This document shows, in pieces, positions 1 through 19,328 of a stretch of DNA of 19,328 nt. The notes under the pieces are model-generated. The model made no database searches. It was not told the origin of the DNA and saw nothing but the letters and a program-made list of their open reading frames with translations. The position numbers and the translations under genes are program-made. Origin of the DNA: Treponema sp. (GTDB lineage Bacteria > Spirochaetota > Spirochaetia > Treponematales > Breznakiellaceae); assembly GCA_031254385.1 (NCBI GenBank), contig JAIRUO010000068.1:1-19328 (forward strand). The letters run 5' to 3'. Position 1 is the stretch's first letter; each line of letters begins with the position of its first letter.

Positions 1-127
1 TCGCATCGATAACCGTAGACTTGCCTGAGCCATTGTCACCGGCGAGGAGGCAGCGGTTGCCTATCTCAATTACCGTGTCATCAAAGTTGTGCCAGTTGAC
101 GAGCCGGATGCGTTCAAGGGTTATCAT
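1..127 (-). CDS. jetC: JetC, SMC-like ATPase of type I Wadjet (partial, N-terminal 42 residues)
   Basis: This is the beginning of a gene that leaves the window on the left. The 42 visible residues start MITLERIRLVNWHNF and carry a Walker A motif, GDNGSGKST, at residues 30-38, followed by VIDA. This is the standard N-terminus of SMC/SbcC/MukB-type ATPases. It sits directly after jetA and jetB, in the order jetA-jetB-jetC, so it should be the ATPase of the Wadjet complex, an SMC machine that extrudes and cleaves closed circular plasmid DNA. The ATG overlaps the jetB stop by one base (TAATG), and GGAGGAAGAG just upstream is a strong ribosome binding site. The rest of the protein (coiled coils, signature motif, Walker B) and any jetD lie outside, so completeness cannot be judged. 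The identity rests on the context plus the Walker A start. Confidence 0.85.
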   Translation of the reverse strand, partial: MITLERIRLVNWHNFDDTVIEIGNRCLLAGDNGSGKSTVIDA

Positions 128-747
128 TACTCTTCCTCCGCTGGAGCGTCTGCGTCTCTGTCAGCATTGCCCTTGTTTCCCAAGGTGGCAAGGGCTTCGT
201 CCAAAGCACTGCGGTCTATTGAGAGAGGTATGCTAGGGTAAAGCTGGATTATCGCCTCCGGTTCGGAGTAGTCCTGAGATTCAATGGACACAAGCTTGCA
301 GGAAGAAAGCCGGGTCAGTACTTTGATGAGCGCGGTCTTTTTGATCTCCTCCCCGGTCATGGCGTTGTATTTGTCCTGAAAATCCCTGACAGTCAATATG
401 GGAAATTTTGTTAGCGTTACTTCAATTCTTTTTTCCTCATAGAGGAGGCGGAGGACAAGAACCGCGCAAATTTCATCTTTGGTAAAATACAGTCGAGTGT
501 TTCCCGGACCACGGAAGGCGATGACACCGAGGCTCTCGTCCCGTACCAGAATTGCGTTCATGCAGGAAAACCATGCCTCAAAAAGCGCGATATTGCGAAT
601 GGTAAAATCGTAAAGATCGCGCTCCTTTTCAATGCCCCGGATGATAAATGTTTTTGAAGTGAGGGTTTGCACTGCCGTCTTGAAGCGCTCAAACTCATCG
701 CTTGAGAGATCACGTATCAGGACAAGGGCGTCAAGATCCTGATTCAT
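127..747 (-). CDS. jetB: JetB, MukE/MksE-like accessory subunit of Wadjet (DUF4194 type)
   Basis: This 206-aa protein is the expected size for JetB, the winged-helix subunit (DUF4194 family, MksE-like) that bridges the JetA kleisin and the JetC ATPase in type I Wadjet. Residues of about 75-120 (VIAFRGPGNTRLYFTKDE, then a hydrophobic helix and VTLTKFPILTVRDF) and 130-165 look like the paired winged-helix segments of this family. The C-terminus is a short acidic tail ending APAEEE. The start at 747 lies inside the end of jetA, a 17-bp overlap, and is preceded by AGAGG seven bases upstream, which argues for translational coupling. The stop shares a base with the jetC start. I identify it from sequence style together with its position between JetA and JetC. 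No residue in JetB is catalytic, so function cannot be tested by a motif. Confidence 0.86.
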   Translation of the reverse strand: MNQDLDALVLIRDLSSDEFERFKTAVQTLTSKTFIIRGIEKERDLYDFTIRNIALFEAWFSCMNAILVRDESLGVIAFRGPGNTRLYFTKDEICAVLVLRLLYEEKRIEVTLTKFPILTVRDFQDKYNAMTGEEIKKTALIKVLTRLSSCKLVSIESQDYSEPEAIIQLYPSIPLSIDRSALDEALATLGNKGNADRDADAPAEEE

Positions 748-2257
748 GCTCTGCCTCTGTTAACGCCCTGCGGAACCGTATGTCGGGAACCACATAGTCC
801 GCAGCATGAACCGAACCTTCATCATCTTCTTCTATATTATACCCGAAATTACTGCGAGAATCTCCGTAAAGCAGGGCATAGACAAAGCGGATGTAGGATT
901 CTTCATCATTGATGAGTTCTGCCGGGATTAATATCTTTTCCGTACCGCCCTGTTCGTCTAACCACATATTGATACGCTTAAGAGAAAGTCGCCGCCGCAT
1001 CTGTTCCAGAAATTCATTCTCCCTTTTTTCCAGGGCCTCAAGATCAGCCTTCGCCACAACGGCGTTAAACCCACCTTCGTCCCGCTGACGGCGGTAAGCC
1101 ACGGTAGAAGGCGAAAAGAAGCTGACGCGGAAAAGGCCGTGGGCAATGTGGGCGCGAGCTTCATTATTGCCGCCGTGGATGGCTTTTATGAGCGTCCCGA
1201 TTTTCCCCGCAACGGTACTGTCCGGTTCAATGTACGCCTTGATGATCTCTGTACTGGAACGTGAATAGGCCGCATTACGGCGGTCGATTTCGTCCTCTAA
1301 CGGATCTACGGAGCGAAGATCGTCCCGGATTTCTTCCAGCATGAATTTCAGCTTTTCCCGACATTCCTCACGGCTGGTCTGGAGTATGCGCATATATTTG
1401 GCCGCGCTTTCGTTAAGCCATTCTTCGTCACGGAGCAGTTCTGCCACTTGTTTAAAAATACTCTGGCGATAGCGGGAAACATTGTCCGAAGTCTTAAGCC
1501 GCTTGTATGCCTTATCCAGCACTTCCCCAGCATACAGATTGTAATGTTCGTGTAACGCCAAAGACGCTTTTGAGCGTATCGCCTCTGCGTTAAGTTTGTC
1601 GTAATAACCCTTGATGCTCTGAGACAAAACCTTGAGGGAGTCAATGAGCGATCGGGCCTCCTCATGCGCCCTGAGTACCGCGTGATGGCCGTCTTTTTTT
1701 ATGGTTTCACCGCATAGCAGCGAATAGACCGTAACGACATGGCTCTCGTATTCTGTTTTAAGGCCGCCGTCCACATCGGCCAGGGCTTTCATAAAGGGCT
1801 TACCCCAGGCCGTAATGTTGATGACCTTGGTGAAATCCGCCAGTGTCTCCTCGCCTAGCCAGCCTGCATTGATGAGCCGCCTTAAGAAATGACTCGCAAG
1901 TGATCGCTCGTCAAAAGGGCGGCTTTCGGGTGTGCGGTTCTCCGTTTCTGCGCTTGGGGCCTCAGAGGAATACTCAAAGTCCAATTCGCCCATAGAGACT
2001 ACTTTATTGCTATTAGTAGACGGTTCATCTGCTGACATATCACCGGAAGCAGTCTCCGTTTCTTCCGCTAAAGTATCCCTGTGTAGGGCCAGGTAGTTCA
2101 TAAATTCACGAACCACCAGTTCCCGATCTAGACCGCGTGTGTTTTCCTGAAAGAGCCGGTAGTAAAGTACCATAAGGGCAGCGTAATGTTCCCTGTTTAC
2201 GCTTGCAAGGAGAGAAAAAAAATTAACAGGCAGAACTGAAAAAACCCCGGCAGGCAT
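731..2257 (-). CDS. jetA: JetA, kleisin-like subunit of type I Wadjet anti-plasmid system
   Basis: This 508-aa protein has the hallmark JetA N-terminus: FSVLPVNFFSLLASVNREHY at residues 6-25, then a helix (ALMVLYYRLF). JetA is the MukF/MksF-like kleisin that links the JetC SMC heads with JetB. Residues of about 65-115 form an acidic, Ser/Thr-rich linker. The rest is predicted mostly helical with long charged stretches, for instance 325-345 and 400-425, as in kleisins with a coiled-coil middle. The start at 2257 is fixed: the triplet immediately upstream is a TAA stop and the family motif begins five residues in. There is no Shine-Dalgarno sequence, and a -10 box ends six bases before the ATG, so the mRNA may be leaderless. 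It is the first gene of the minus-strand Wadjet operon, divergent from hsdM. Length and order match a type I system; jetD is not visible. Confidence 0.88.
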   Translation of the reverse strand: MPAGVFSVLPVNFFSLLASVNREHYAALMVLYYRLFQENTRGLDRELVVREFMNYLALHRDTLAEETETASGDMSADEPSTNSNKVVSMGELDFEYSSEAPSAETENRTPESRPFDERSLASHFLRRLINAGWLGEETLADFTKVINITAWGKPFMKALADVDGGLKTEYESHVVTVYSLLCGETIKKDGHHAVLRAHEEARSLIDSLKVLSQSIKGYYDKLNAEAIRSKASLALHEHYNLYAGEVLDKAYKRLKTSDNVSRYRQSIFKQVAELLRDEEWLNESAAKYMRILQTSREECREKLKFMLEEIRDDLRSVDPLEDEIDRRNAAYSRSSTEIIKAYIEPDSTVAGKIGTLIKAIHGGNNEARAHIAHGLFRVSFFSPSTVAYRRQRDEGGFNAVVAKADLEALEKRENEFLEQMRRRLSLKRINMWLDEQGGTEKILIPAELINDEESYIRFVYALLYGDSRSNFGYNIEEDDEGSVHAADYVVPDIRFRRALTEAEHESGS

Positions 2258-2263
2258 TTATCA

Positions 2264-2292
2264 ACGGTATGTAAAGGGGGTTTATTTGTCAA
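2264..2292 (-). promoter_or_regulatory. Promoter of the jetABC operon
   Basis: On the minus strand a perfect TTGACA (-35, positions 2287-2292) is followed after exactly 17 bp by TACCGT (-10, positions 2264-2269, three of six matches to TATAAT, including the first two and last bases). The predicted +1, seven bases past the -10, falls on the A of the jetA ATG at 2257, which would make the message leaderless. This is a sigma-70-type reading by eye. Confidence 0.55.
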
Positions 2293-2307
2293 GGTGGTGG
2301 GAGGGGG
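2293..2307 (+). other. G-rich tract between divergent defence promoters
   Basis: The plus strand reads GGTGGTGGGAGGGGG between the -35 of jetA and the -35 region of hsdM. Four G runs of at least two could form a two-tier G-quadruplex, or the tract could simply be a binding site. It abuts the jetA -35 box. No function is shown by the sequence alone. Confidence 0.35.
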
Positions 2308-2340
2308 TACCATAATGCTATAGGTTTTTTCGCTTATTTA

Positions 2341-2349
2341 TGATATAAT
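2341..2349 (+). promoter_or_regulatory. Extended -10 promoter of the type I R-M operon
   Basis: TGATATAAT is a perfect extended -10 element (TGn followed by consensus TATAAT at 2344-2349). No good -35 is present 17 bp upstream (TAGGTT at 2321-2326), which fits an extended -10 promoter. The predicted start of transcription, at 2356 or 2357, coincides with the hsdM ATG at 2357. No Shine-Dalgarno sequence precedes that ATG. Confidence 0.65.
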
Positions 2350-2356
2350 TTCCTTT

Positions 2357-4177
2357 ATGGACACCGTGATTCACAACCAAATCGTCAATTTCATCTGGGG
2401 TATAGCCGATGACTGCCTTCGGGATGTATATGTCAGGGGGAAGTACCGTAATGTCATACTCCCAATGACAGTAATCCGCCGTCTTGACGCTGTCCTTGAA
2501 CCCACCAAGGAGAAGGTTCTTGAAATGAAGAAGAACCTCGACAAAAATAAAATTTCCAATCAGACCTCCGCTCTCTGTTCGGCTGCCGGTCAAGCCTTTT
2601 GTAATTCTTCTCTCTTCAATCTCCGCGACCTTACCGCCCGTTCCACTCAAGCAAAACTCAGAACCGATTTCAACGCCTATCTTAACGGCTTCTCGTCTAA
2701 TGTTCAGGAAATCCTTCTTAAATTTAAATTTCGGGATGAAATCCCTACCATGCTGGAAGCTGATATACTTGGTGCTGTAGTTGAAAAGTTTGTCTCTCCC
2801 AAAATCAACTTGAGCCCCAATCCAGTCCTTGACGAGAAGGGTAAAAAAATCATGTCCGGCCTCGACAATCATTCAATGGGAACTATTTTTGAAGAACTAA
2901 TACGAATGTTCAACGAAGAAAATAACGAGGAAGCCGGGGAACATTTTACCCCTCGCGATGTCGTTGAACTCATGGCAGACCTTATCTTTACTCCGATTGC
3001 CGACAAAATCCTTGACAGTACCTATTCCTGCTATGACGGTGCTTGCGGCTCAGGCGGTATGCTGACAGTAGCGGAAAAACGCTTGGTGGATCTTGCTGCC
3101 AAAAAGAAAAAGAAAGTTTCTATTCGCCTTTTTGGTCAGGAAATACAGGGTGAAACCTACGCCATAGCCAAAGCCGATCTTCTCTTAAAAGGGGAAGGCG
3201 CACAATCGGATAATATTTCTTTTGGTTCCACTCTGTCTAACGATAACAATTCTTCCCGTGAATTCGATTTTATGCTTTCCAATCCTCCTTATGGCAAATC
3301 ATGGAAGGTAGATGCCGATAAAATGGGCGGTAAAAAAGGTATCATCGATAGCCGCTTTATTATCCCTTTTGAAGGAGACGGTGAGTTCAACATGATACCC
3401 CGCTCTTCGGACGGCCAGCTTCTTTTTCTTTTGAACAATGTGTCTAAAATGAAAAAAGACACTCCCACAGGAAGCCGTATTGCCGAAGTCCACAACGGTT
3501 CTTCCCTCTTTACCGGCGATGCGGGGCAGGGCGAAAGCAACGCCCGCCGCTACATGATAGAGAAAGACCTTGTAGAAGCCGTTATCGCCCTGCCGGAAAA
3601 GATGTTTTACAATACCGGCATTGCCACTTTTATCTGGATACTCTCCAACAAAAAAGAAAAAAAGCGCAAAGGTAAAATACAATTAATAGACGCCACTTCC
3701 ATAAAAACGCCGCTCCGCAAAAATTTGGGCGACAAGAACTGCGAACTATCTGCCAAAGATCGCAAAAAAATTCTCGATCTGTATTTGAAGTTTGAAGAAA
3801 ATGAATATAGCCGTATATTCAATCTGAATGAATTCGCCTATTGGAAAATAACAGTCTGCCAACCCATGTATGATGAGACGGGCAAAATCCTAAAAGATAA
3901 GAAAGATAATCCTCAGGCTGATTCCGAATTGACTGATACCGAACAGATACCTTTTACTTACGAGGGCGGTATAGAAACCTTTTTCGAGAAAGAGGTAAAA
4001 CCCTATACCAAAAACGCATGGATAGATGAAAGGCAAACCAAAATCGGCTATGAAATCAGTTTTACCAAGTATTTCTATAAGCCTATAGAACTGCGGCCAC
4101 TTGAAGAAATTACCGCAGATATAAAAGCCCTTGAAACGGAAACCAAGGGGCTGTTGGAAAAGATAATTGGGGATTGA
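2357..4177 (+). CDS. hsdM: Type I restriction-modification system, DNA N6-adenine methyltransferase subunit M
   Basis: This 606-aa protein is a full-length HsdM. The N-terminal helical HsdM_N domain starts at once (HNQIVNFIWGIAD, then VILPMTVIRRLDAVLEPTK, residues 6-51). GEHFTPRDVVELM at 194-206 and DGACGSGG at 227-234 form the S-adenosylmethionine-binding region. NPPY at 309-312 is the catalytic motif IV of N6-adenine methylases. M subunits pair with HsdS to methylate the recognition site and, with HsdR, form the restriction complex. The ATG at 2357 must be the start: an in-frame TAG lies at 2321 with no start codon between, and the conserved domain begins right after it. No ribosome binding site is visible, and the extended -10 box ends seven bases before the ATG. 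hsdS follows after nine bases. G+C here is close to 50% (one sampled line 52%), clearly higher than in the next two genes. Confidence 0.97.
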   Translation: MDTVIHNQIVNFIWGIADDCLRDVYVRGKYRNVILPMTVIRRLDAVLEPTKEKVLEMKKNLDKNKISNQTSALCSAAGQAFCNSSLFNLRDLTARSTQAKLRTDFNAYLNGFSSNVQEILLKFKFRDEIPTMLEADILGAVVEKFVSPKINLSPNPVLDEKGKKIMSGLDNHSMGTIFEELIRMFNEENNEEAGEHFTPRDVVELMADLIFTPIADKILDSTYSCYDGACGSGGMLTVAEKRLVDLAAKKKKKVSIRLFGQEIQGETYAIAKADLLLKGEGAQSDNISFGSTLSNDNNSSREFDFMLSNPPYGKSWKVDADKMGGKKGIIDSRFIIPFEGDGEFNMIPRSSDGQLLFLLNNVSKMKKDTPTGSRIAEVHNGSSLFTGDAGQGESNARRYMIEKDLVEAVIALPEKMFYNTGIATFIWILSNKKEKKRKGKIQLIDATSIKTPLRKNLGDKNCELSAKDRKKILDLYLKFEENEYSRIFNLNEFAYWKITVCQPMYDETGKILKDKKDNPQADSELTDTEQIPFTYEGGIETFFEKEVKPYTKNAWIDERQTKIGYEISFTKYFYKPIELRPLEEITADIKALETETKGLLEKIIGD

Positions 4178-4186
4178 GGAAAAAGT

Positions 4187-4933
4187 ATGTTGGAAGGATA
4201 TAAGGAGTATAAAGAGATACCAGAATTTTGGCTTCCTTTAATACCAAGGAATTGGGACAGCATAAAAATAAAGCATATTTTTAAGGAACGTGTTAAAAAA
4301 GGCTATCCCGAAAAACCTTTATTGGCGGCAACACAAAATATGGGTGTTGTTCCTAAAGATGTATACGGCAATAGAACCGTTGAAGCCCTAAAAGATTTGC
4401 ATCTATTAAAATTAGTCAAGGTAGGTGATTTTGTAATTAGCTTGCGTTCTTTTCAAGGCGGTATAGAATATGCTTATTATGAGGGTATTATAAGCCCTGC
4501 TTATACAGTAATGATACCGGATAATAACAATCCTCATTTCTTTCGATATCTTTTTAAGTCTGTAAGATTTGTTGAATTATTACAGAATTGTGTAACAGGT
4601 ATTCGCGAAGGACAAAATATAGACTATTCTAAATTACGAGATCATTTTGTACCAATTCCACCCCATCCTGAACAAGACCAAATTGTCCGTTACCTTGACT
4701 GGAAAGTTTCGCAAATTGACAATTTTTTTAGACTGACATATGGGAAGGCTAGTATAGACCCAAAAATATTCGTGAGCTACCCCAAATCTTTATTATCATT
4801 ACTTCAGGAATACCGTACCCGTTTAATCTCTAATGTCATTACTGGGAAAGTGAATGTACAGGGTATTAAAGTGCCAGAATTTAAAAATATTGAATATCAA
4901 AACACTTATGATTCAGATGAAGAGGCAGAATAA
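4187..4933 (+). CDS. hsdS: Type I restriction-modification specificity subunit S, half-size with a single target recognition domain
   Basis: This 248-aa protein is about 60% of the usual HsdS length of around 400. It has one target recognition domain (residues about 15-157: IPRNWDSIKIKHIF at the start, VGDFVISLRSFQGG in the middle, FVPIPPHPEQDQIVRYLD at the end). One conserved helical segment follows (163-180, then 201-223 LLQEYRTRLISNVITGKVNV). A normal S subunit has two of each. The acidic tail after VPEF is typical of family C-termini, so the gene ends naturally rather than being cut off. Half-size S subunits made experimentally can dimerise and read a symmetric bipartite site, so a palindromic target is inferred. 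GAGGAAAAAGT precedes the ATG, nine bases after hsdM. The stop overlaps the next start by one base (TAATG). The G+C is lower than in hsdM. Confidence 0.92.
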   Translation: MLEGYKEYKEIPEFWLPLIPRNWDSIKIKHIFKERVKKGYPEKPLLAATQNMGVVPKDVYGNRTVEALKDLHLLKLVKVGDFVISLRSFQGGIEYAYYEGIISPAYTVMIPDNNNPHFFRYLFKSVRFVELLQNCVTGIREGQNIDYSKLRDHFVPIPPHPEQDQIVRYLDWKVSQIDNFFRLTYGKASIDPKIFVSYPKSLLSLLQEYRTRLISNVITGKVNVQGIKVPEFKNIEYQNTYDSDEEAE

Positions 4934-7900
4934 TGGATAGTAATGCTGAAAATAAAGTGCAATTTGTTTCTCGATCTGAATTTTACAGACAAATGCGACC
5001 AGAATTTTTCTCAGATTCAGAAAATATTGCAGATATTATTTTACCCAGAGAAGTTCTTGCGTTTGAAATTGAAAAGATTAGTACCAACCAAAAACAAGAC
5101 CTTTTTGAAACTCTTTGTAGAAGATTGGCTGAAAGATTAATTTGTCCAAACTTAATACCACAGGTTGGTCCTACTGGTGGCGGAGATGGCAAAACTGATT
5201 CTGAAACTTATTCTGTCTCAAAACTCATTTCTGAAAGATGGTATATTCCGCGAGATGGCTGGAAGAACGATGAAAAATGGGCTTTTGCTTTTAGTGCAAA
5301 AAAAGACTGGAAAGCAAAAATAGAATCTGATATAAAGAAGATAATTGATACAAATAGGGGCTATACAAAATTCTTTTTTATAAGTAATCAAAAAATTTCA
5401 AGTAAGAAAAAAAAAGATGAACAAGGTTCATTAATCAAGGAATATGGGATTGATGTTACCATTTTTGATGCTGAATGGATCATTGAGAATATTTATAGAA
5501 AGAACCTTATTGAACTTACAGCTGAAACATTGAATATGTCTGATGTTTATAAAGGACGGAAGAAACGCTTGGGTAAAAATGATACTACAAGATTGGCTGA
5601 AGTAGAAGAAATTGAAAGAAAAATAGGAGATTGCCAATATTATTCACATGGCGATATACAATTGATCCATGATGCGATACGTTGTGCTGTTCTTTCGAGA
5701 ATGCTTGAGTTGCCGCGAGATGAAGTTGAAGCAAAATTTGTAAGAGCGGAGCGATTGTGTAATGAATACAGTGTAAAAGGCTTATTGACTAAAATAATAT
5801 ATCAAAAAGCATGGACATATATAAATTATTATGACGATTATCCTAATTTTATTAGCGAAACAATAAAACTAAAAGAACTCATTAATGAAAAATCAACAAG
5901 TATCGAAATAGAGTGGATATTAAATTTGTTTAATATATACCGCTCCATTCATCATTCTAAATCAGATGATATACCAAACAGGGATATTATTTATAATGAT
6001 TTTGAAAAGTATATAATTAATATTTTATCTTTGCGTTTACAAAAACAAGAAATGCCATGTTCTGCTTTAGTTGCAGAAACATACCTTGCTTTAATTGATT
6101 TAGTTCGCGTAGGGTATACACATGAGGATCCTTCAGCCTTGCTAAAGAATCTGTCAGAAATTATTTCAAAAAGCAAAAAATATATAGAATATCCATTTGA
6201 GCCTATTTGTCAAATTATAACAGAATTGGGATATATATTTGCAGATAACGCAGAATATGATATACTCATTGAAAATATAGTAAATATTTCAAGTCTGCGT
6301 GAATCTGAAATAAACTCTGGCATAATCTATTTTAATCGTGGAATACAGAAATTTAGAGCTAATAAATTCAAAGAAAGTATAGTTTATTTGGGCAGAGCAG
6401 TATTCAGATTGGCAAAAGAAGAAACCTCTGACAATATGATTTTTGCATTAACTATACTAGCAGAGAGTTATAAGGAATTAGCATTGCCTTGGGCATCTTA
6501 TAATTGTCTAATAACAGCAGCATCATTGGAACTGAAGAAGTTGTCTGAAGAAAATAAAATAACACAACAGTTTCTATCTATAATTAAATCAATACTCTCA
6601 ACAGAAATATTATTAGGGCGTCTTCCAAATATTTTTTTCTGGCATAGGTTATTTTTAACATTATATCAACAATATGGAGATAAAACAAGTGATATTCCCG
6701 ATAATATTATGTTAGATGGTTGTTTAGCTGTAAGATTATTACATATTGATCAAAAAGAAAATAATTTAAAATATTTACCACATATCCTAGAGAGTCAAGG
6801 ACTTCTGGTTTCTAGTGCTGCTGTTTTATATTTATTAGGGTATGAAGATGAAATTATAGAACATTATTCATATTTAGGTTTTAAAAACAATCTGGAACTT
6901 GGAGTTTTTTTTCAGAAATCTTATTCTCAGCCACTAATTGAACAAGTTTACTCTCAAACAGATTTCCAAAATTCTGATCTTCTTGCATTAAAAACTATCA
7001 TTATTGGTTGTGAAGTACAATTTGAGTTTGTCAAAAACAAAAGGATGTTTTTTCTTGTGGAAACAATCCTTGTTTTAATAGAAAGCATATTAGCGACTTC
7101 TGTTGGAAAAATATTCCCACATATAAAAAACGTCATTATTAGTGTTATTGAGGATAATAGTATTGATTATTTCTTGCAAACAAAAGATACGGAAACAAAC
7201 AGGCTGACATTAAAAGTAAATCCAAATAATATTTCTACCGGAGATCATAATTTAAAAGTCAGGTCTTTCTTAACTTTTTTCTCATTCATCCTTGCAAATT
7301 ACTTTTATACGGATAATATCAAAAATTTTATTGATAATATTTTCAGTAAAGAAAATCTTAATGAACGTTTAGCTGTTGCTTTTAACCATGAGCAACTATC
7401 GTCGGACTGCATGGGAAACAATACAAAAATATTTTTCGATGACTGGAAAGATGATAGAGTTATTTATGAAAATAAAAGACCATCACCTATTATTTTTCCT
7501 GAGAATATAACAAAAAATTCACAAAGTATTGCCCTTGATAAGGAGACATTTGAAAATGTACCGCATAATAAATTTGAAATTCATTCAATAATAGATGATA
7601 GTCTTTGGAATAAAGCAACTTGGAAAGCAACTGGTGTTGCTGCGCTACCAGAAGAAGGAATACTTGGTCTTGCCTTGATTTTTGATAATTTTGATGCTGG
7701 GAGAAAAATATTTGATGAATGGAATAAACTAATAGGAAAAATTGATAAAGAGGAATTAATTGATATCACTGTAATTAAAGGAATTGATAAACATAATCCC
7801 TATTGGTACAGAGTCGTTGTTACGGCAAATCAAGAAAAAATAATAATTAATAAAGATAAGTTTCTTATACTGAAATTAAGAGTTAATGAAATGGAGGCTA

Positions 7901-8193
7901 AAGACCATGGTAATTTGACTATCTTTGAAAACGCTTTTCAAATTCTAAAAAGGTATATTCTTTTCCCTTCATCTACGAAGGGGTTGCTTCCTGAACACTT
8001 AAAATATGGGATCGTAAAGACCAAAATAACAATGATAAACGCATGGCAGATTGGGATAAATGACCCATATCAAGCTGCAATACATGATACAGATGAACCG
8101 ATTTTACCCGAAGGTATAGATAATGTTCCAATACTTTCTTTACTGAAACAAATGAAAGAGAAAAAGAAGGGGTATTCAAATGACAGAATATAG
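4933..8193 (+). CDS. Large protein with N-terminal PD-(D/E)XK (Mrr-like) nuclease and helical repeats, embedded in the R-M operon
   Basis: The N-terminal part of this 1086-aa protein reads as a restriction-endonuclease-like fold. A helix LFETLCRRLAERL (57-69, with E59) is followed by PTGGGDGKTDSETY (80-93) and a strand AFSAKKDWK (119-127). D89 with S121-x-K123 fits the D...(E/Q/S)xK core, and residues 143-190 (FFFISNQ, IDVTIFDAEWII) complete the alternating strands and helices. From about 225 to 860 it is helix-rich with TPR-like pieces (GIIYFNRGIQKFRANKFKES, LTILAESYKELALPWASYN). Residues of about 870-1050 look like a separate folded domain (WKATGVAA, GLALIFDNFDAGRKIF, NPYWYRVVV). I see no signal peptide, helicase or NTPase motif. 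The start overlaps the hsdS stop by one base, with GAGG upstream. Sampled lines are only 22-28% G+C against roughly 50% for hsdM, suggesting separate acquisition. A nucleic-acid-cleaving defence effector is my inference; I cannot name the family. Confidence 0.8.
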   Translation: MDSNAENKVQFVSRSEFYRQMRPEFFSDSENIADIILPREVLAFEIEKISTNQKQDLFETLCRRLAERLICPNLIPQVGPTGGGDGKTDSETYSVSKLISERWYIPRDGWKNDEKWAFAFSAKKDWKAKIESDIKKIIDTNRGYTKFFFISNQKISSKKKKDEQGSLIKEYGIDVTIFDAEWIIENIYRKNLIELTAETLNMSDVYKGRKKRLGKNDTTRLAEVEEIERKIGDCQYYSHGDIQLIHDAIRCAVLSRMLELPRDEVEAKFVRAERLCNEYSVKGLLTKIIYQKAWTYINYYDDYPNFISETIKLKELINEKSTSIEIEWILNLFNIYRSIHHSKSDDIPNRDIIYNDFEKYIINILSLRLQKQEMPCSALVAETYLALIDLVRVGYTHEDPSALLKNLSEIISKSKKYIEYPFEPICQIITELGYIFADNAEYDILIENIVNISSLRESEINSGIIYFNRGIQKFRANKFKESIVYLGRAVFRLAKEETSDNMIFALTILAESYKELALPWASYNCLITAASLELKKLSEENKITQQFLSIIKSILSTEILLGRLPNIFFWHRLFLTLYQQYGDKTSDIPDNIMLDGCLAVRLLHIDQKENNLKYLPHILESQGLLVSSAAVLYLLGYEDEIIEHYSYLGFKNNLELGVFFQKSYSQPLIEQVYSQTDFQNSDLLALKTIIIGCEVQFEFVKNKRMFFLVETILVLIESILATSVGKIFPHIKNVIISVIEDNSIDYFLQTKDTETNRLTLKVNPNNISTGDHNLKVRSFLTFFSFILANYFYTDNIKNFIDNIFSKENLNERLAVAFNHEQLSSDCMGNNTKIFFDDWKDDRVIYENKRPSPIIFPENITKNSQSIALDKETFENVPHNKFEIHSIIDDSLWNKATWKATGVAALPEEGILGLALIFDNFDAGRKIFDEWNKLIGKIDKEELIDITVIKGIDKHNPYWYRVVVTANQEKIIINKDKFLILKLRVNEMEAKDHGNLTIFENAFQILKRYILFPSSTKGLLPEHLKYGIVKTKITMINAWQIGINDPYQAAIHDTDEPILPEGIDNVPILSLLKQMKEKKKGYSNDRI

Positions 8194-8290
8194 TGTTGTT
8201 TATATACATAGTTTCTGTAATAGTGAAATTATAGTTTCAGTTGAATATAATTTTCAAATTTACTCAAATAAGGTTCAGAAGGAGAACTAA
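8180..8290 (+). CDS. Possible 36-aa protein bridging the nuclease gene and the antitoxin gene
   Basis: An ATG at 8180 opens 36 codons starting MTEYSVVYIHSFCNSEIIV and ending VQKEN with TAA at 8288-8290. It overlaps the end of the nuclease-TPR gene by 14 bp in another frame and abuts the antitoxin ATG at 8291 with no base between. AGAAGGGG at 8165-8172, seven bases upstream, is a good ribosome binding site. The antitoxin's own site (AAGGAG) lies inside its last codons. Composition is as AT-rich as the preceding gene. It has no recognisable domain; it may be a real small protein, the remnant of a lost gene, or a leader that couples translation. The sequence does not decide between these. Confidence 0.42.
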   Translation: MTEYSVVYIHSFCNSEIIVSVEYNFQIYSNKVQKEN

Positions 8291-8581
8291 ATGCCGATAA
8301 TACGCCCAATAACAGACCTTGAAACAAGCTTGTCTGAAATTACCAAAACCGTACATGAAACGGATGAGCCTGTCTTTTTAACCAATAATGGTTATGGCGA
8401 TATGGTAGTCATGAGCATGGAAAACTGGGAAGAAATGAACTTTGAAAACGAGATTTACCAGAAACTGGTAGAGGCTCAAGCCGAAGCTTATTCAAATCCC
8501 AAACGTCTTTCTCATGATGAGGTTTTTGGTCCCCTTCGCCAAAAGATTGCCGATTATAAGGGATCTTCAGAAAATGCCTGA
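8291..8581 (+). CDS. Phd/YefM family antitoxin
   Basis: This 96-aa protein has the Phd/YefM layout. The N-terminal DNA-binding and dimerisation part includes PITDLETSLSEITKTVHETDEPVFLTNNG in spirit (residues 6-36, with the ITDL and VFLTNNGYGDMVVMSMENWEE signatures), and the charged C-terminal helix binds and neutralises the toxin. It is followed by a RelE/ParE-type toxin that starts eight bases before this gene stops (ATGCCTGA), a classic antitoxin-first type II arrangement. AAGGAG sits nine bases before its ATG. Such antitoxins usually repress their own promoter, but here the gene lies inside a long co-directional operon and I see no clear promoter in the few bases before it. It would therefore depend on operon transcription or on a promoter within the preceding AT-rich coding sequence. 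G+C returns toward that of hsdR. Confidence 0.92.
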   Translation: MPIIRPITDLETSLSEITKTVHETDEPVFLTNNGYGDMVVMSMENWEEMNFENEIYQKLVEAQAEAYSNPKRLSHDEVFGPLRQKIADYKGSSENA

Positions 8582-8879
8582 GATAAAGTATCTGCCCTCT
8601 TTTCAGCAGGAACTCAATGCTATAGTGGATTATATCACTTTTACTCTGGAAGCACCCCGAGCTGCTTCCAATCTGCTGGATGAACTTGAGAAATCAATCA
8701 ATAATCTTAGGGTTTTCCCGCTTGCCCATAGGTTGTATCGTCCTATAAAACCGATCCAGACTGAATACCGTGTCTTGACAGTAAAAAATTATCTTGTTTT
8801 TTATGTTGTTCTTGAAGAAACCATAGAAATTCATCGTATAATCTACAAAAAGAGGAATCTATCTCAATTGATAAAATAA
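8574..8879 (+). CDS. RelE/ParE family toxin
   Basis: Starting at ATG 8574, this 101-aa protein (MPEIKYLPSFQQEL...) has the RelE/ParE fold pattern. It begins with a strand, then a long helical hairpin (residues 15-45, AIVDYITFTLEAPRAASNLLDELEKSI), then FPLAHRLY and the sheet YRVLTVKNYLVFYVV, ending EIHRIIYKKRNLSQLI. The last part, with R/K-rich IIYKKR, is the usual active or binding edge. The frame stays open upstream to 8514, but the earlier ATG would put unrelated residues before the conserved start. The 8574 ATG has AAGGGA nine bases upstream and the typical overlap with the antitoxin stop. The family includes ribosome-dependent mRNA interferases and gyrase poisons, and sequence alone does not say which this is. 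It is followed by hsdR after 16 bp. Confidence 0.92.
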   Translation: MPEIKYLPSFQQELNAIVDYITFTLEAPRAASNLLDELEKSINNLRVFPLAHRLYRPIKPIQTEYRVLTVKNYLVFYVVLEETIEIHRIIYKKRNLSQLIK

Positions 8880-8895
8880 ACTAAAGGAACTGAAA

Positions 8896-11850
8896 ATGCC
8901 CACCAATACCAAAGAATCTGGTCTTGAAGAACTAATCGTAAACTCCCTTGTGCAAGACAATGGTTATCAACAAGGCGCTAATGAAGACTATAACCGCGAT
9001 TATGCCATAGATGAAACCCGCCTTTTCCGCTTTCTCAATAATACTCAAAAAATTGAAATGGCAAATATTAAACTTTCCTTTAAAGAATCTGGTAAAGCTT
9101 ATGATCTTGTAAAACAAAAAATCCTTGATATACTTCGGGCTGAGATTACCAAGCGTGGAGTTATTGACGTTCTCCGTAACGGAATAAAACTTTATCCATC
9201 AAGCTTAACGCTGTTCTATCCCACTCCCTCTGAAAGGAACGAGCAGGCAAAGAAGGATTTTGAACAGAATATCTGGAGTGTTACCAGACAGCTTAGGTAT
9301 TCAAATGATAAGACCCGTCGCGCCCTTGATTTTGTAATCTTCATAAATGGGTTGCCGATCTTTACAGCCGAACTGAAAAACCGCTCGACAAAACAGAATG
9401 TCGAGGATGCGGTCAAGCAATATAAAGTAGACCGTAACCCCAAAGAATTGATTTTTCATTTCAAGCGCTGTGCCGCCCATTTTGCCATAGATGATGAAGA
9501 AATACAGTTTTGTGCCAAACTTGAAGGTAATGATTCATGGTTCCTGCCTTTCAATAAAGGTTATAATGATGGGGCGGGAAACCCTCCCAATCCACAAGGT
9601 CTTGCTACGGATTATTTCTGGAAAGATATTCTCAAGAAGAATGAGCTTGCCAATATAATTGAAAACTATGCCCAGGTTATTAAAGAAAAAAATCCGCAAA
9701 CCGGAAAGATTACTGAAAGACAAATATTCCCCCGTTTTCATCAATGGGCTGTTGTTAAATCACTCCTTGCTGAGGTAAAAGAAGAAGGCATTGGACAGCG
9801 GTATCTTGTTCAGCATAGCGCCGGAAGCGGCAAATCAAACTCCATAGCGTGGCTTGCCCATCAATTGGTTGATCTTGAAAAAGACAATAAGCTAGTGGTC
9901 GATTCAATTCTGGTAGTAACCGACCGCCGCAATCTCGACCGCCAGATTCGGGATACAATTAAATCATTTACATCTGTTTCTAATACTATTGCTCCTGCTG
10001 AACATTCCAGAGACTTACGGGATGCCATAGAAGCCGGCAAAAAAATAATCATTACAACCATTCATAAATTCCCCTATATTTTTGAGGATATGGGAACCGC
10101 ACATAAAGGCCGTCGTTTTGCTATCATCATAGATGAAGCGCATTCCAGTCAAAGCGGTAATATGTCCGCCAAAATGAATGCTGTTCTGTCAACTACGGTT
10201 TTTTCTGATGATGACGATAGCGAAGACATCATAAATAAACTAATAGAGAGTCGCAAACTCCTGCCAAATGCCAGTTATTTTGCCTTTACTGCAACTCCAA
10301 AAAATAAAACGCTTGAACTATTTGGTACACCATATACAGAAGACGGCAAAATAAAACGCAGACCTTTCCATAATTATTCCATGAAACAGGCAATAGAAGA
10401 AGGCTTTATACTTGATGTTCTTAAAAATTACACTACATACCAAAGTTATTATCATTTGATAAAAACAATTGAAGAAGATCCTTTATTTGACAAAGGCAAG
10501 GCGCGAAAACGGCTCCGTAAATATGTTGAGGTCAGTCCTGAAGCTATTTTCAAAAAAGCTGAAATAATAGTAGAACACTTCCATGAAAATGTCCGTTTTC
10601 GTATCGACAAACAGGCTCGCGCAATGGTTGTAACCGGAGGTATAAAAAAGGCCGTTGAATATTTTGATGCCATTTCAAAATGTCTTTTAAAACGCAAAAG
10701 CCCATATAAAGCAATTATCGCCTTTACTGGCGATACTGAACATACAGATACATCAACTAAAAATAAAAGCATGGTATCAGAGGCCGATCTTAACAGGTTT
10801 CCAAGCAATCAAATTGAAAGTACTTTCAGGGCAGAACCATACCGTTTCCTGATCTGCGCTGACAAGTTCCAGACCGGTTATGATGAACCTCTTTTGCATA
10901 CCATGTATGTGGATAAAATTCTTGATGATATAAAAGCAGTACAGACTCTCTCTCGCCTGAATCGTGCTTATAGAAACAAAAATGATACTTTTGTTCTTGA
11001 CTTTGCCAATAAAGCCGATGATATAAAAGAAGCCTTCTCTCGTTATTACAAAACCACACTTCTATCTGATGAAACCGACCGTAACAAATTATATGAGTTT
11101 ATTGCTAACATGGAGAAATATGAAGTCTATTTCCAACAAGATATTGATAGTGTTGTTAATTATTTTCTTAACAACTCTCCCCGTACAAAGATAGACCCAA
11201 TCCTTGATATTTGTGCCGAGCATTACAAATCTCTTGAAGAAGATGAACAAGTCGAATTCAAAGCCAGTGCAAAAGATTTTGTCCGCCTCTATAATTTTCT
11301 TGGAGCTATTCTTTCCTATGGTATGCCTGATTGGGAAAAACTTTCAATTTTTTTGACCCTTCTGCTACCAAAGTTACCTGCACCAAAAGAAAATGATGAC
11401 ACAAAAGAATTGCTTAAATATATCGAGCTTGAGAGCTATCGTGCACAAAAAAGAGAAACCACAGACATTCTTCTTAACGATGTAAATTATGAACTTTCTC
11501 CAATAAACATAGCCGATCAGGTTTCCCCCGGTGAAGCGGATAAAGATTATCTGTCCCGTATCCTTGATGATTTCCATAAACAATGGGGTGATCTAAACTG
11601 GCAGGACGAGGATAATGTTAAGGCAACTATTAAGCAGGTTCAGTTAACCGTCTCAAAGGACGAAAAGTATCAGAACGCCATGAAAAACGCTGATCGCGAA
11701 AGCGCTAAGGATGAAGGCAAAGACGCTACCGAGCGGGCCATGCAGTCCTTTATGACCGACAGTATGGAACTCTATAAACAGTATGCCGATAACCTTTCAT
11801 TCCGCTTATGGCTTATCGACTTCATATTCAACGGAACTTATAAGCGGTAA
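8896..11850 (+). CDS. hsdR: Type I restriction-modification system, restriction and translocation subunit R
   Basis: This 984-aa protein is a full-length HsdR. The N-terminal nuclease core is D145 followed by E159-L-K161 (in LDFVIFINGLPIFTAELK), the PD-(D/E)XK residues that cut DNA. The superfamily 2 motor follows: Walker A in HSAGSGKS at 307-314, DEAH at 413-416, then FAFTATP (motif III) and helicase domain 2 with ICADKFQTGYDEPLLHTMYVDK and QTLSRLNRAYRNK (motif VI). The C-terminal helical region binds the M2S core and ends DFIFNGTYKR. The ATG has AAAGGA eight bases upstream. The gene ends in tandem TAA TAA codons. It is the last gene of the operon and is separated from hsdM and hsdS by the nuclease, small ORF and toxin-antitoxin pair. 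The motifs look intact, so the restriction activity should be functional. Confidence 0.97.
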   Translation: MPTNTKESGLEELIVNSLVQDNGYQQGANEDYNRDYAIDETRLFRFLNNTQKIEMANIKLSFKESGKAYDLVKQKILDILRAEITKRGVIDVLRNGIKLYPSSLTLFYPTPSERNEQAKKDFEQNIWSVTRQLRYSNDKTRRALDFVIFINGLPIFTAELKNRSTKQNVEDAVKQYKVDRNPKELIFHFKRCAAHFAIDDEEIQFCAKLEGNDSWFLPFNKGYNDGAGNPPNPQGLATDYFWKDILKKNELANIIENYAQVIKEKNPQTGKITERQIFPRFHQWAVVKSLLAEVKEEGIGQRYLVQHSAGSGKSNSIAWLAHQLVDLEKDNKLVVDSILVVTDRRNLDRQIRDTIKSFTSVSNTIAPAEHSRDLRDAIEAGKKIIITTIHKFPYIFEDMGTAHKGRRFAIIIDEAHSSQSGNMSAKMNAVLSTTVFSDDDDSEDIINKLIESRKLLPNASYFAFTATPKNKTLELFGTPYTEDGKIKRRPFHNYSMKQAIEEGFILDVLKNYTTYQSYYHLIKTIEEDPLFDKGKARKRLRKYVEVSPEAIFKKAEIIVEHFHENVRFRIDKQARAMVVTGGIKKAVEYFDAISKCLLKRKSPYKAIIAFTGDTEHTDTSTKNKSMVSEADLNRFPSNQIESTFRAEPYRFLICADKFQTGYDEPLLHTMYVDKILDDIKAVQTLSRLNRAYRNKNDTFVLDFANKADDIKEAFSRYYKTTLLSDETDRNKLYEFIANMEKYEVYFQQDIDSVVNYFLNNSPRTKIDPILDICAEHYKSLEEDEQVEFKASAKDFVRLYNFLGAILSYGMPDWEKLSIFLTLLLPKLPAPKENDDTKELLKYIELESYRAQKRETTDILLNDVNYELSPINIADQVSPGEADKDYLSRILDDFHKQWGDLNWQDEDNVKATIKQVQLTVSKDEKYQNAMKNADRESAKDEGKDATERAMQSFMTDSMELYKQYADNLSFRLWLIDFIFNGTYKR

Positions 11851-11875
11851 TAAGCCCCATGCATTTTAGCACTAT

Positions 11876-14800
11876 TCACGCCGAATTCAACAATTTCTGC
11901 ATCACTACCCTGGCAGCTTCGTAATCACTCATGAGCACAGCATTCTTTATTCGGTCAAATTCTTCAATAAAAGCATCATTCGAATTTAGTGCATCAAGGG
12001 CCTTTATCCCCTCATCTATGGCCGGGAAATCCATCTCGTCAAAAGCTGCTGTCATTTTTTCTAAAACAGATGGCAATCCAGACGGGATCCCTACGCTCTT
12101 ATTTTGTTTCTTTGTCGGGAAAGCTTCCGTAATGCCTGACTTCAAAGTATCAAGTCCTTCCAATAAGAACGGCAGCTTTATAGCGCAGAAGGCAGAGTCC
12201 TCCTTGGTGGCAGCGGACTCAAGTTCCAGTGCCATATTGGATAGTTCAGATGCGCCTATGTTGGCCAGTGAGCTTTTCATGCTATGCACTGCAATGGAAA
12301 AATTGCGCATATCATCAGCCGCCAAATAATCTTTCATTGTTTTTGCGCTGTTTTCAATTTCTGTTATCATTAACTTAAGCGATCTTTTGTAAACTTCACG
12401 CTGGCCTGCAACTCTTTCCAGCCCTGTTTGTACGGAAAGCCCGTCAATTCGTTCTATTTTTTTCCAGAAATCCCCATCTGCATTGGCGTCCGATCTGCTT
12501 ACAGGAGCCGTTCCGTCCATAATACCAACGCGTTTCGCTATCTTCTCTGCAGGAATCCAATTTTCCAGCATCTGTATCAGAGCTGCTTTAATAATAGGTT
12601 TAGCCAAAAAGTCATTCATGCCCGCAGCAAGGAACATATCTTTTATTCCTTCAATGACATTTGCGGTAAGCGCGATAATAGGTACATTTTCGCCCATTTT
12701 GCGAAGTATTTTCGTGGCTTCCACGCCGTCTATATCCGGCATCATATGATCCATAAACACAAGGTCATATTGATTTGCGCGAACCATATCTATTGCCTCT
12801 TCGCCGGAGCTTGCCCTATCCGCTGTTATTTCATATTGCTGTAAAAGTCCGCATGCGACATTCAGGTTGATTGAATTGTCGTCAACCACCAATACCTTTG
12901 CGTCAGGTGCATATATAGCGTGTTCATTACCGCCGATATAAGAAATCAAGGATTCATCGCCAAGAACTTTTGGAATTATGATGCGGAAGATTGTACCCTG
13001 GCCGTACAAACTTTCCATTGTTATCTGCCCGCCCATCATTTCAACCAATGATTTGGAAATAGACAAACCCAATCCGCTCCCTTCTTTAGTACGGTTCCTC
13101 TGTGTGTCGAACTGCGTAAAAGTTTCAAAAAGCTTGGGTATATCTTCTGCAAGTATACCCGCGCCTGTATCGCTGATCGAAAATTTAATGTTTTTCTCGG
13201 TAACATCTATGGCTAAACGTACATAACCTTCGCTGGTAAATTTAATCGCATTGCCCAGTATATTCAGAAGTATCTGCCTAAGGCGCATATCATCCCCATA
13301 CAGGCACTTGGGTATTGCGCTCTGCATTATCAGCTTAAATTCTATATTCTTTCCAGCGGCCAGGTATTGCACCATTGAAGAAATATTATCTATCAGCGAG
13401 TTAAAATCGTAGTGTATCGGTACAAGAGTCAGTTTACCGGCCTGTATTTTTGACAAATCCAGAATATCATTAATGATATTTAACAGCCCTATCGCAGATA
13501 GCCTGATATCTTCTACGCAGCGGAGCTGGCGTTTATCCAGATTAGTCGGAATCAATAATTCCGACATTCCCAAAATGGCGTTCATAGGCGTGCGAATTTC
13601 ATGCGACATTTTGGCCAGAAATTGGGACTTTGCCTCATTTGCCTCTTCTGCGCTTTCTTTTGCCGTTTCTGCTTCCCTGGCTACAACCAGCAATTCGCGG
13701 GTACGCTCCACCACGCGGTTTTCCACTGTACTCACGTACTCTTTCAAAGTAGTAACCATTCTCATCAGCGCACGCTGCAAAACAACAATTTCGTTGTTTT
13801 CGTCAGACTTTCTGGGTAATATAGCCTCGCTAAATTCAGCGTCAAGGTTGCCGATTGAAATTTGCGTGGCGGTCTCTGTAAGCACCCTGATGGGTTTCAC
13901 AATATTATTCGTATTTACATAAATAATAATAACTATTAAAATAAGGCAGGCCATACATGCAGCCGCAATCAGCCATGTGATCCCATAAGCGTCTTTGTAT
14001 AGAATATCGATTGGTGTACCAAAATACAAATATAAAGTATATTTCTCTGCCCCAATATCGATTTCAAGCGGGTACATGGATACAAGGGATTTCCTCTTGG
14101 TAAACGGTGACATGATTTCATCAGAATATATTATTTTTTGTTCCGTTGCGTTACGCAGAATATCAAAATCTTCAAAATAAAAGTCCTTCAAATTTTGTGC
14201 AATATTTTCGTTGACCGTGGCATGAAGAATTGTCATATCCTGGCTCAGAAGCATCAGCGTAAATACCGGGGTCTCCTCAAAAACCTCTGCAAGATTAAAT
14301 ATACCTTCATAAGTAATATCCACGCCGCAAATCCCGATTGTTTTACCGTTTGATATAATGGGAACGCTGATGGTTCCGGTATATATTGGCCCTTCTCCGG
14401 TGCCATAATCATAAGGACCTACATAATCAAAATACGGTTTTCCTGTTGTTAGCGGAACATGATACCATGGTGAAACTATAGCAGCTTCCAGTTCTTCTTC
14501 AGAATTATAATCTTCTATATCCAGAAGAACCCCGTTGCTTCTTATGTAATCCTTGGTATAATGCCTGTCTTCGTAGTATATGCCCTCCATAAAAATAAAC
14601 CATGCGCAGTAGACATTTGGACTTAAATCAATCATCGTGAACAGGGTTTTGTCTGCTGTCGCTTTTGCCTCGTCCGAAGGATGGTCAAGCGATGCAAGCG
14701 TTTGTTGAGTAAAATCAAGCAGGCCAGTTATATAGTCAAAACTCTTTTTTACTGAGTATGTAATGTACTTTGCGTGATCCGCATCCTTATTCTTAGCAGT

Positions 14801-14932
14801 ATTTATGCTGCTTGCAAGCAGAATATTTACCACCAGGACTATTATGAGACAGAAAACAGCAGAAACAGCACACAGGGTTGTAAGCAGTACCTTGCGGGTA
14901 GTGGACATCCTTTGATGTTTTTGTTTACCCAT
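11876..14932 (-). CDS. Membrane hybrid sensor histidine kinase (dCache-HAMP-HisKA-HATPase-REC-HPt)
   Basis: This 1018-aa protein has a transmembrane helix at about 15-41, then an extracytoplasmic dCache-type sensor (42-315, with [25 protein letters not shown] and [12 protein letters not shown]). A second membrane helix (about 319-339) and HAMP (about 340-400) precede a coiled coil. The cytoplasmic kinase has H444 in [10 protein letters not shown]-box residues N557 and N561 and G-box GSGLGLSI (618-625). A receiver follows (acidic pair D684/D685, phosphoacceptor D728, K778), then an HPt with H883 in [11 protein letters not shown]. This is a complete His-Asp-His relay. The final 80 or so residues form a further helical segment with no phosphoacceptor histidine. 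The start overlaps the stop of the upstream response regulator by eight bases (ATGGGTAA), so the two are coupled and the HPt most likely passes phosphate to it. The ligand is unknown. The gene converges on hsdR with 25 bp between the stops. Confidence 0.95.
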
Positions 14933-16007
14933 TTTTCAGAGCCTCGCTTACTTCCTTTATTTGAAGAGACAGTTTTAAAAATAGATCGACCAGCTCTGGG
15001 TCAAACTGTGAGCCACGCCCATCGGAAATTATCTTCATGGCTTCTTCATGCGAAAAAGCGCCTTTATACGGACGTTTTGAAACCAGCGCGTCATACACAT
15101 CTGCAAGGGACATCATACGCGCCTGCAGCGGAATCTCGCTGCCCTTCAAGCGATCAGGATAGCCTTTTCCATCCCATCTTTCATGATGGCAGTATGAAAG
15201 TGTTTTCGCATAATCAAGGAAAGTCTGGGTCGGCACCTTTTCTTGCAGGCTTTCGAGCAGCATTTTACCGTAAACCGCATGCTGCTTCATATAGCCAAAC
15301 TCTTCTTCGGTGAGTTTTGACCTTTTAAGCAGAATTTCATCAGGAATTCTTATTTTGCCTACATCGTGAAGAAGGGCCGACTTAAAGAACGCTTCTTTAT
15401 CCCAGGCGGTTACCTCGGTAGTGTACTGATCCGTTTCTTCCATTGCGTTGAGCATTATTTGCAAATATTTCTGCACACGCTCCACATGCTGGCCGGTTTC
15501 TTCGTCCCTGAATTCAACCATCTCTGCGGCCCAGGTAATAATCGCATTCTGAAGCTGAACCAAATCATTTGTTCTTTCTTGAACCATTGCGACAAGGTTA
15601 TCATTAAACTCGCGAAGTTCGTTCTTTTGGGACTGCAGAAGTAAATGCAGCTCTATTCTTTTTAGCAGGAGCGGTGGCGAAAAAGGCTTTGTTATGTAGT
15701 CCACCGCCCCAAGGGAAAGGCCCTTTAGCTCATCTTCTGCATCAATTTTTCCTGTCAGAAATATTACAGGTATATCCGCAGTTTCTGGATTTGCCTTTAA
15801 TTCTTTTAACGCGTCATAGCCGCTCATGCCGGGCATTTCCACGTCAAGCAGTATTAAATCTGGCCTGACTTTTTTCAGCATGAACAGGAGTTTATCCCCT
15901 GACGGCAACGTAACTACGGTATACATGTCTTGTAAAGCATTTTTCCCGGTATTCAGGTTTACAATGTTGTCGTCTACCAGAAAAATGCACTTTGTACGAG
16001 CTTCCAT
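14925..16007 (-). CDS. Response regulator with HD-GYP cyclic-di-GMP phosphodiesterase output
   Basis: This 360-aa RpfG-type protein has an N-terminal receiver (acidic pair D12/D13, phosphoacceptor D55 in [16 protein letters not shown]85, K107). A short coiled linker (about 120-155) joins it to an HD-GYP domain: TGQHVERV around H174, [15 protein letters not shown] with H214/D215, and [11 protein letters not shown] with GYP at 282-284 and further residues DVYDALVS. The metal-binding HD pairs and the GYP signature are intact, so hydrolysis of cyclic-di-GMP is expected, switched by phosphorylation. It has no DNA-binding domain. It sits between the mannosidase gene, five bases upstream, and the hybrid kinase, eight bases overlapping, on the same strand. 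The ribosome binding site is weak (TAGGT, close to the ATG), which suggests coupling to the mannosidase termination. It should be the output of the adjacent kinase relay. Confidence 0.95.
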
Positions 16008-16012
16008 AATAC

Positions 16013-19204: not shown

Positions 19205-19241
19205 GTATCCATACTCCTTAAATTGTGCATACAAAAATTTC

Positions 19242-19247
19242 AGTATA
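19242..19247 (-). promoter_or_regulatory. Probable -10 box for the mannosidase operon
   Basis: On the minus strand TATACT at 19242-19247 lies 37 bp before the mannosidase ATG. This gives a leader of about 30 bases that contains the AAGGAG ribosome binding site. The -35 partner 17 bp away (ATATCA) is poor, so the call is tentative. Confidence 0.4.
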
Positions 19248-19264
19248 CAGTTTTTAGTTTTTCA

Positions 19265-19273
19265 TGATATATT
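19265..19273 (+). promoter_or_regulatory. Extended -10 promoter for the rightmost MBL gene
   Basis: TGATATATT (TGn plus TATATT at 19268-19273) is an extended -10 box that ends eight bases before the ATG at 19282. It has the same layout as the hsdM promoter. Predicted transcription starts near 19279-19282, which leaves at most a three-base leader. No ribosome binding site is visible. Confidence 0.5.
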
Positions 19274-19281
19274 AAATCACG

Positions 19282-19328
19282 ATGAATATCAACTTTTATT
19301 CGCTCGGCGGCGCCGAGGAAGTAACAGG
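19282..19328 (+). CDS. MBL-fold (beta-CASP type) metallohydrolase, partial N-terminus
   Basis: Only 15 complete codons are visible, reading MNINFYSLGGAEEVT and then a partial glycine codon. The LGGAxEVTG pattern at the start is typical of MBL-fold RNA-processing or RNA-specificity (beta-CASP) proteins. Their first strand and turn precede the metal-binding HxHxDH motif, which lies outside the window here. An in-frame TAA at 19273-19275 fixes the start at 19282. The family call is based on a short stretch and could be wrong in detail. Confidence 0.6.
   Translation, partial: MNINFYSLGGAEEVT

Follow-up and report, generated by a model that had tools for sequence, protein, structure and literature searches.

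The window that we analyzed, a stretch of 19,328 nucleotides (nt) from Treponema sp. (contig JAIRUO010000068.1, positions 1 to 19,328, forward strand), contains a type I restriction-modification (R-M) operon that includes a large gene encoding a protein of 1,086 amino acids (aa). This focal gene (4933 to 8193, + strand, ATG start) follows hsdM, for the type I methyltransferase (2357 to 4177, +; Pfam and PADLOC matches, N6_Mtase E value 6.8e-55), and a short hsdS (4187 to 4933, +; 248 aa, Pfam and PADLOC), and it precedes hsdR, for the type I restriction subunit (8896 to 11850, +; Pfam and PADLOC, HSDR_N and SWI2_SNF2). The hsdS stop codon TAA (4931 to 4933) supplies with its final base the A of the focal ATG at 4933, so that the two genes overlap by one base in the string TAATG. 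An earlier, sequence-only reading of this DNA had described the gene at these coordinates, with this overlap and inside such an operon, and the coordinates, the TAATG junction, and the hsdM, hsdS, and hsdR matches agree with it. From sequence or model, the predicted protein begins with a PD-(D/E)XK-type domain, continues with a TPR-like superhelix and then an alpha/beta insert, and ends in a C-terminal domain (the tail) homologous to that of bSEFIR-type proteins. We found that it belongs to a real, widespread, and unnamed family that unites a nuclease-type domain, a repeat scaffold, and this tail, a combination that is new as far as our literature searches go.

One database search identified 263 homologues of the focal protein at an E value of ≤1e-3 among 7,995 scored candidates. 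Nearly all of the matches listed (120 of 263) are full length (1,003 to 1,111 aa). No Pfam domain was seen in any of these 120, and where a name is given, it is a variant of "hypothetical" or "uncharacterized." Since there are 263 homologues and nearly all of those listed are full length, the focal open reading frame (ORF) is not a chance one. The 21 relatives that we aligned share 37 to 75% identity, and members are known from several phyla. With tblastn, we found the family in 13 plasmid records from Alpha-, Beta-, and Gammaproteobacteria, Cyanobacteria, and Bacillota (with coverage of at least 80% in 11 of the 13) and in one unverified phage scaffold. Six viral contigs gave a full alignment and five an N-terminal one, with one contig common to both sets. 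Copies with at least 99% identity to the type at locus L010 occur in 26 of 5,426 complete Escherichia coli genomes, and in 23 of these the copy spans at least 80% of that type. In Bacteroidota, the phylum of the Aequorivita genome (G001) that carries locus L001, full-length copies were present in 2 of 395 genomes, and the remaining two matches of the scan were one SEFIR protein and one short fragment; the counts of full-length copies were 2 of 395 genomes for the class of G001 and 3 of 397 for its family. Among the matches listed, the plasmid and E. coli genes are labeled "hypothetical protein." Sparse, mobile occurrence is usual for defense genes, and such a distribution alone proves nothing about a defense role. 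In E. coli NWU_1 (L051, 10001 to 13251), the copy appears to be split, with two neighboring ORFs in the annotation, and on a Polymorphobacter plasmid (L035, 9962 to 13809) it lacks the tail end and runs into an IS5-family transposase.

The PD-(D/E)XK-type domain (residues 14 to 200; 4972 to 5532, +) was recognized from the full-length model and from motif conservation. An Mrr-like core with E59, D89, and S121-x-K123 had been proposed from the sequence, and we verified E59, D85, D89, S121, A122, and K123 at these positions of the focal protein. In the model, a helix at residues 55 to 69 (with E59) is followed by a short strand at D89, a strand at 116 to 121 that leads into S121-A-K123, and then a helix (126 to 139), a strand (146 to 151), a helix (157 to 171), a strand (174 to 178), and a helix (180 to 189). 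This is the helix-strands-helix-strand order of a PD-(D/E)XK core, with low block values of the predicted local distance difference test (pLDDT), 55 to 79, over residues 71 to 120. The residues and the PD-(D/E)XK order over residues 55 to 190 of the proposed core thus stood, but the Pfam Mrr-type profile was unmatched. The signature itself is present as acidic D89 followed by x-K in S121-A-K123, although the position before x-K, usually acidic, is a serine here; variants of this acidic position are known among PD-(D/E)XK nucleases. In an alignment of 136 members, D85, K87, D89, S121, W126, K129, and D133 are identical in all 136, which covers the charged residues of the D85-G-K87-T-D89 motif (5185 to 5199, +) and the serine of the S121-A-K123 motif (5293 to 5301, +), whose lysine is retained in 133 of the 136 (R once, Q twice). 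The share of the commonest residue per column is 74% in the nuclease region, 55% in the repeats, 47% in the insert, and 55% in the tail, in an alignment dominated by near relatives because 116 of its 136 members are among the nearest matches of one search. Among viral predicted structures (BFVD), the model matched two nucleases at a Foldseek probability of 1.00, namely an endodeoxyribonuclease I over 153 columns and a restriction endonuclease over 175.

Variation around this domain was seen in several relatives. At L010 (9989 to 13237) and L047 (8748 to 11945), S-T-R or S-A-Q replaces S-A-K, possibly reflecting a lost or shifted catalytic lysine. Proteins of about 1,000 aa at L030 (5971 to 9018), L031 (5947 to 8888), and L032 (5920 to 8877) have an N terminus distantly related to the nuclease-type domain and no Pfam match at an E value of ≤0.1 in the parts scanned; one of the three is annotated as two ORFs, and the gene at L030 adjoins one annotated as a Shedu nuclease.

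The long helix-rich middle of the earlier description appears in the full-length model (pLDDT 86) as a TPR-like helical superhelix (residues 204 to 670; 5542 to 6942, +), for which PDB structure searches gave lists of repeat proteins, and is followed by a modeled alpha/beta domain and then helices (residues 683 to 827; 6979 to 7413, +). The whole protein matched no Pfam family at an E value of ≤1, so no nuclease, SEFIR/TIR, NTPase, Argonaute, or APAZ family was recognized in it, and searches of Pfam, PADLOC, NCBIfam, PHROGs, and PDB sequences gave no informative match. Both Walker A patterns (GxxxxGK[ST] and [AG]x4GK) are absent. These results bear out the claims that the protein has no NTPase motif and fits no family of these libraries. 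The Pfam, PADLOC, and NCBIfam models that we used miss the focal member, so a census built on them would overlook it as well.

The link to a known defense protein comes from the tail (residues 870 to 1084; 7540 to 8184, +). A profile of the family matched the end of a 365-aa protein with a TIR_2/SEFIR domain (L017) in one Bacteroidota genome, and BLASTP aligned this protein with focal residues 887 to 1044 at 31% identity (E value 3e-12). A second TIR/SEFIR protein with the tail (L028), on a Lactiplantibacillus plantarum plasmid, is 34% identical to L017 along its length. Both match the PADLOC bSEFIR model over nearly the whole profile (E values 3.4e-62 for L017 and 6.3e-57 for L028). When we compared profiles with hhalign, tail profile A7 (11 tail rows of full-length nuclease-type proteins and five fragments resembling them) matched profile A6 (L017, L028, two SEFIR fragments, and two stand-alone tails) with a probability of 99.94 and an E value of 2.1e-37 over 179 columns; for a control, A6 against the nuclease-domain alignment gave 0.04. 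The tail is present in both nuclease-type and SEFIR proteins; thus, as judged from sequence, one C-terminal module accompanies at least two different effector domains (SEFIR/TIR and PD-(D/E)XK type). Folded alone, the tail gave a pLDDT of 89.9 and a predicted template modeling score of 0.85, which together with the full-length model upholds the claim of a distinct C-terminal domain. The structure check that the sequence-only reading had suggested, which for residues 50 to 195 covered the fold within the whole-protein model, yielded a PD-(D/E)XK-type order there and a tail that folds alone, but no convincing match of the tail model among PDB structures. Two proteins of 191 aa (P0128 and P0129) consist of the tail domain only.

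We also compared the surroundings of the family gene across 21 loci, with near-identical copies merged: the window, L001, L002, L003, L004 (with L037), L005 to L009, the E. coli group (L010 to L014 and L049 to L051), L025, L026, L027, L033, L034, L035, L036, L045, L046, and L047. L024 (truncated), L029 (a remnant), and tail-only or fragment loci were excluded; several of the 21 end early on one side, and genes are missing from the tables for the plasmids. PADLOC was applied to chosen neighbors, in sets of 4 (all matched) and 10 (2 unmatched, and L005 with kinase-type matches only, which we did not count). A PADLOC-recognized defense gene lies within 10 kb in 9 of the 21 loci, the window included; this is a raw count that lacks a background rate, so enrichment cannot be claimed. 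The neighbors are R-M and JetA/JetB in the window, MkoC-like at L002, MkoA at L006, IetA/IetS at L007, Avs2/Aga-like at L033, PDC-S58 at L046, HEC-04 at L049, and, at L001 and L034, Hachiman HamA/HamB directly downstream, with HamA beginning 172 and 251 nt past the family gene. No defense system was recognized near the gene at L003, L004, L035, or L047, and at L036 (Pantoea) it lies among metabolic genes. At L045 (6185 to 8211, Bacteroidota), a PLD-like protein, identified by eye, and a CHAT-domain protein are encoded directly upstream, perhaps as another defense unit, and were not counted. The suggested link to anti-phage biology is supported by the tail shared with bSEFIR-type proteins and by these neighbors.

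We conclude that the focal protein is probably a self-contained, effector-type anti-phage protein with a nuclease output, a reading in which we infer the protection, the target, and the trigger. In an uninfected cell, the protein would be kept inactive. The repeat and tail half would sense a phage component or a cellular change caused by infection, and the molecules would assemble on this trigger. The nuclease domains would then cut nucleic acid, most likely DNA, leaving the phage cycle unfinished, possibly at the cell's cost. In bSEFIR, the tail would likewise serve for input or assembly, with NAD+ breakdown by the SEFIR domain as the output. The position in the hsd operon would give co-expression with the R-M genes and would be due to chance insertion, with no role as a subunit.

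Several results weigh against this conclusion. Our literature searches found no experiment on any family member. When 12 N-terminal domains were compared with Pfam at an E value of ≤10, they matched 12 unrelated weak families and no restriction nucleases; their PADLOC matches were weak and came from 1 of the 12 each (PDC-M38B, E value 0.006; PDC-M32B, E value 0.036), and the domain has no match among PDB sequences. It was modeled inside the whole protein, and the lists of PDB structure matches for that model are taken up by repeat proteins; the identity of the repeats in the focal protein is the less firm part of the model. The two BFVD nuclease matches (rows 9 and 19) have E values of 0.08 and 0.23 and no printed aligned range. 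In addition, the whole focal protein does not match the PADLOC bSEFIR profile at an E value of ≤1, and the isolated tails of the window, L002, L003, L006, L016, P0128, and L028 (7 of 7) miss it at an E value of 10. Fragments that keep the SEFIR end do match it (P0130, E value 1.4e-23, positions 110 to 376; P0132, E value 6.9e-7, positions 156 to 376), so the SEFIR half accounts for much of the bSEFIR score, whereas the evidence for tail homology is the BLASTP match with L017 and the A7-A6 comparison. Finally, among the chosen neighbors scanned, 12 of the 21 loci show no clear known defense system.

The operon position could instead mean that the protein serves the type I R-M complex as an accessory component, binding HsdS, HsdM, or HsdR or acting when the complex is blocked or bypassed, and the sequence-only reading had suggested that it works with or backs up this complex. 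The one-base overlap with hsdS and the short operon gaps are in keeping with this, as is a two-gene system that Vibrio cholerae carries within a type I R-M cluster and that is reported to have protected less alone than with the whole cluster against several phages (PMC11411939). However, the same paper shows that the embedded pair itself caused protection, a 97-nt gap and a toxin-antitoxin pair part the focal gene from hsdR, and hsd genes accompany the family gene in 1 of the 21 loci, the window itself. The window HsdM, HsdS, and HsdR proteins have no relatives at an E value of ≤1e-4 in 48 loci (the best over 51 loci has an E value of 1.5), and no hsd genes appear next to the family gene in the loci with annotation, although incomplete plasmid tables or strongly divergent hsd genes could let some escape. 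Recurrent placement between hsdS and hsdR was thus not found, and we consider the accessory role very improbable.

It is unlikely, on our assessment, that the nuclease-like domain targets RNA, or binds nucleic acid without cutting it while another step arrests the cell. The serine before x-K, the three members of 136 that lack K123, the low model confidence around the motif, and the lack of a useful match to known-nuclease profiles would fit such an activity; the seven invariant residues and the acidic-position variants of other PD-(D/E)XK nucleases argue against it. The gene could also be general toxic or stabilizing cargo of mobile elements, serving plasmid or prophage competition and not primarily phage defense. 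Plasmid carriage, the parA/parB-type genes near the members at L002 and L003, and the E. coli copies, which adjoin integrase genes and in one case sit where a prophage tail module ends, fit this account, but prophage-end positions are also common for defense genes, and neither the tail held in common with bSEFIR-type proteins nor Hachiman directly downstream in two distant hosts sits well with it. We therefore rate the cargo account as quite unlikely and retain the effector-type defense protein as our reading.

Elsewhere in the operon, a Phd/YefM-type antitoxin gene (8291 to 8581, +) and a ParE/RelE-type toxin gene (8514 to 8879, +), both recognized by Pfam and NCBIfam, overlap by 68 nt between the focal gene and hsdR. 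The gaps are 9 nt from hsdM to hsdS, 97 nt from the focal gene to phd, and 16 nt from parE to hsdR, and the HsdR protein scores below the curated cutoff of the NCBIfam hsdR model. With 248 aa and one Methylase_S match, HsdS is possibly a half-S subunit. The GC content of the focal gene is 30.2%, compared to 43.7% for the remaining window. Because 12 of the 18 family genes for which this was computed are lower in GC than their surroundings (by more than 3 points), AT richness is partly a family trait; recent acquisition of the focal gene is plausible from composition alone. Divergent from the hsd operon, the Wadjet genes jetB (127 to 747, -) and jetA (731 to 2257, -), recognized by Pfam and PADLOC, reach the left edge of the window, and any further Jet genes would lie outside it. 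Past hsdR, on the opposite strand (11876 to 16007, -), we read from the sequence a hybrid histidine kinase, together with a response regulator that includes an HD-GYP-like region.

Members of the family come from several phyla, and ordinary E. coli genomes carry them too. It is quite possible, and we propose it tentatively, that the tail is an unnamed module for phage input or infection-triggered assembly, with a fold unseen among solved structures, that is common to a SEFIR NADase and to a PD-(D/E)XK nuclease on a TPR-like scaffold. If so, the focal protein would represent a large and widespread class of single-gene nuclease defense. With the tail also present on an unrelated nuclease effector, the input and output sides can be considered apart, and bSEFIR sensing becomes testable in two systems at once. 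In the texts available from our literature searches, we found no account of phage sensing by bSEFIR.

The closest comparison is with bSEFIR, a single-gene anti-phage protein (PADLOC PDLC03957). Both are encoded by one gene, with an N-terminal effector and a homologous C-terminal domain of about 170 to 200 aa. In contrast to bSEFIR, the focal protein has a PD-(D/E)XK-type effector, is about three times longer, has a repeat scaffold and an alpha/beta insert between effector and tail, and does not match the bSEFIR profile. Avs4 has the order Mrr-like nuclease, STAND ATPase, and TPR; the focal protein differs from Avs4 and other AVAST proteins in having no NTPase family or Walker A motif and in having a bSEFIR-type tail, and the root mean square deviation of the Avs4 match makes it no proof of relation. 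Two papers report anti-phage action of SEFIR systems with depletion of NAD+ (PMC12322248, PMC12774641). One describes SEFIR as an NAD+-cleaving domain (PMC12774641), and the other, on Streptococcus thermophilus, lists it as abortive and NAD+-depleting and its protection as narrow (PMC12322248). The V. cholerae pair TgvAB consists, in its available description, of defense genes inside a type I R-M cluster that are themselves responsible for protection, but it is a GmrSD-type two-gene system (PMC11411939); its resemblance to the focal gene lies in operon position. Partners of short prokaryotic Argonautes (TIR-APAZ, SIR2-APAZ, and DNase/RNase-APAZ), as described in the text available, likewise combine one module with an NADase or a nuclease, whereas the focal protein has no Argonaute or APAZ domain in Pfam.

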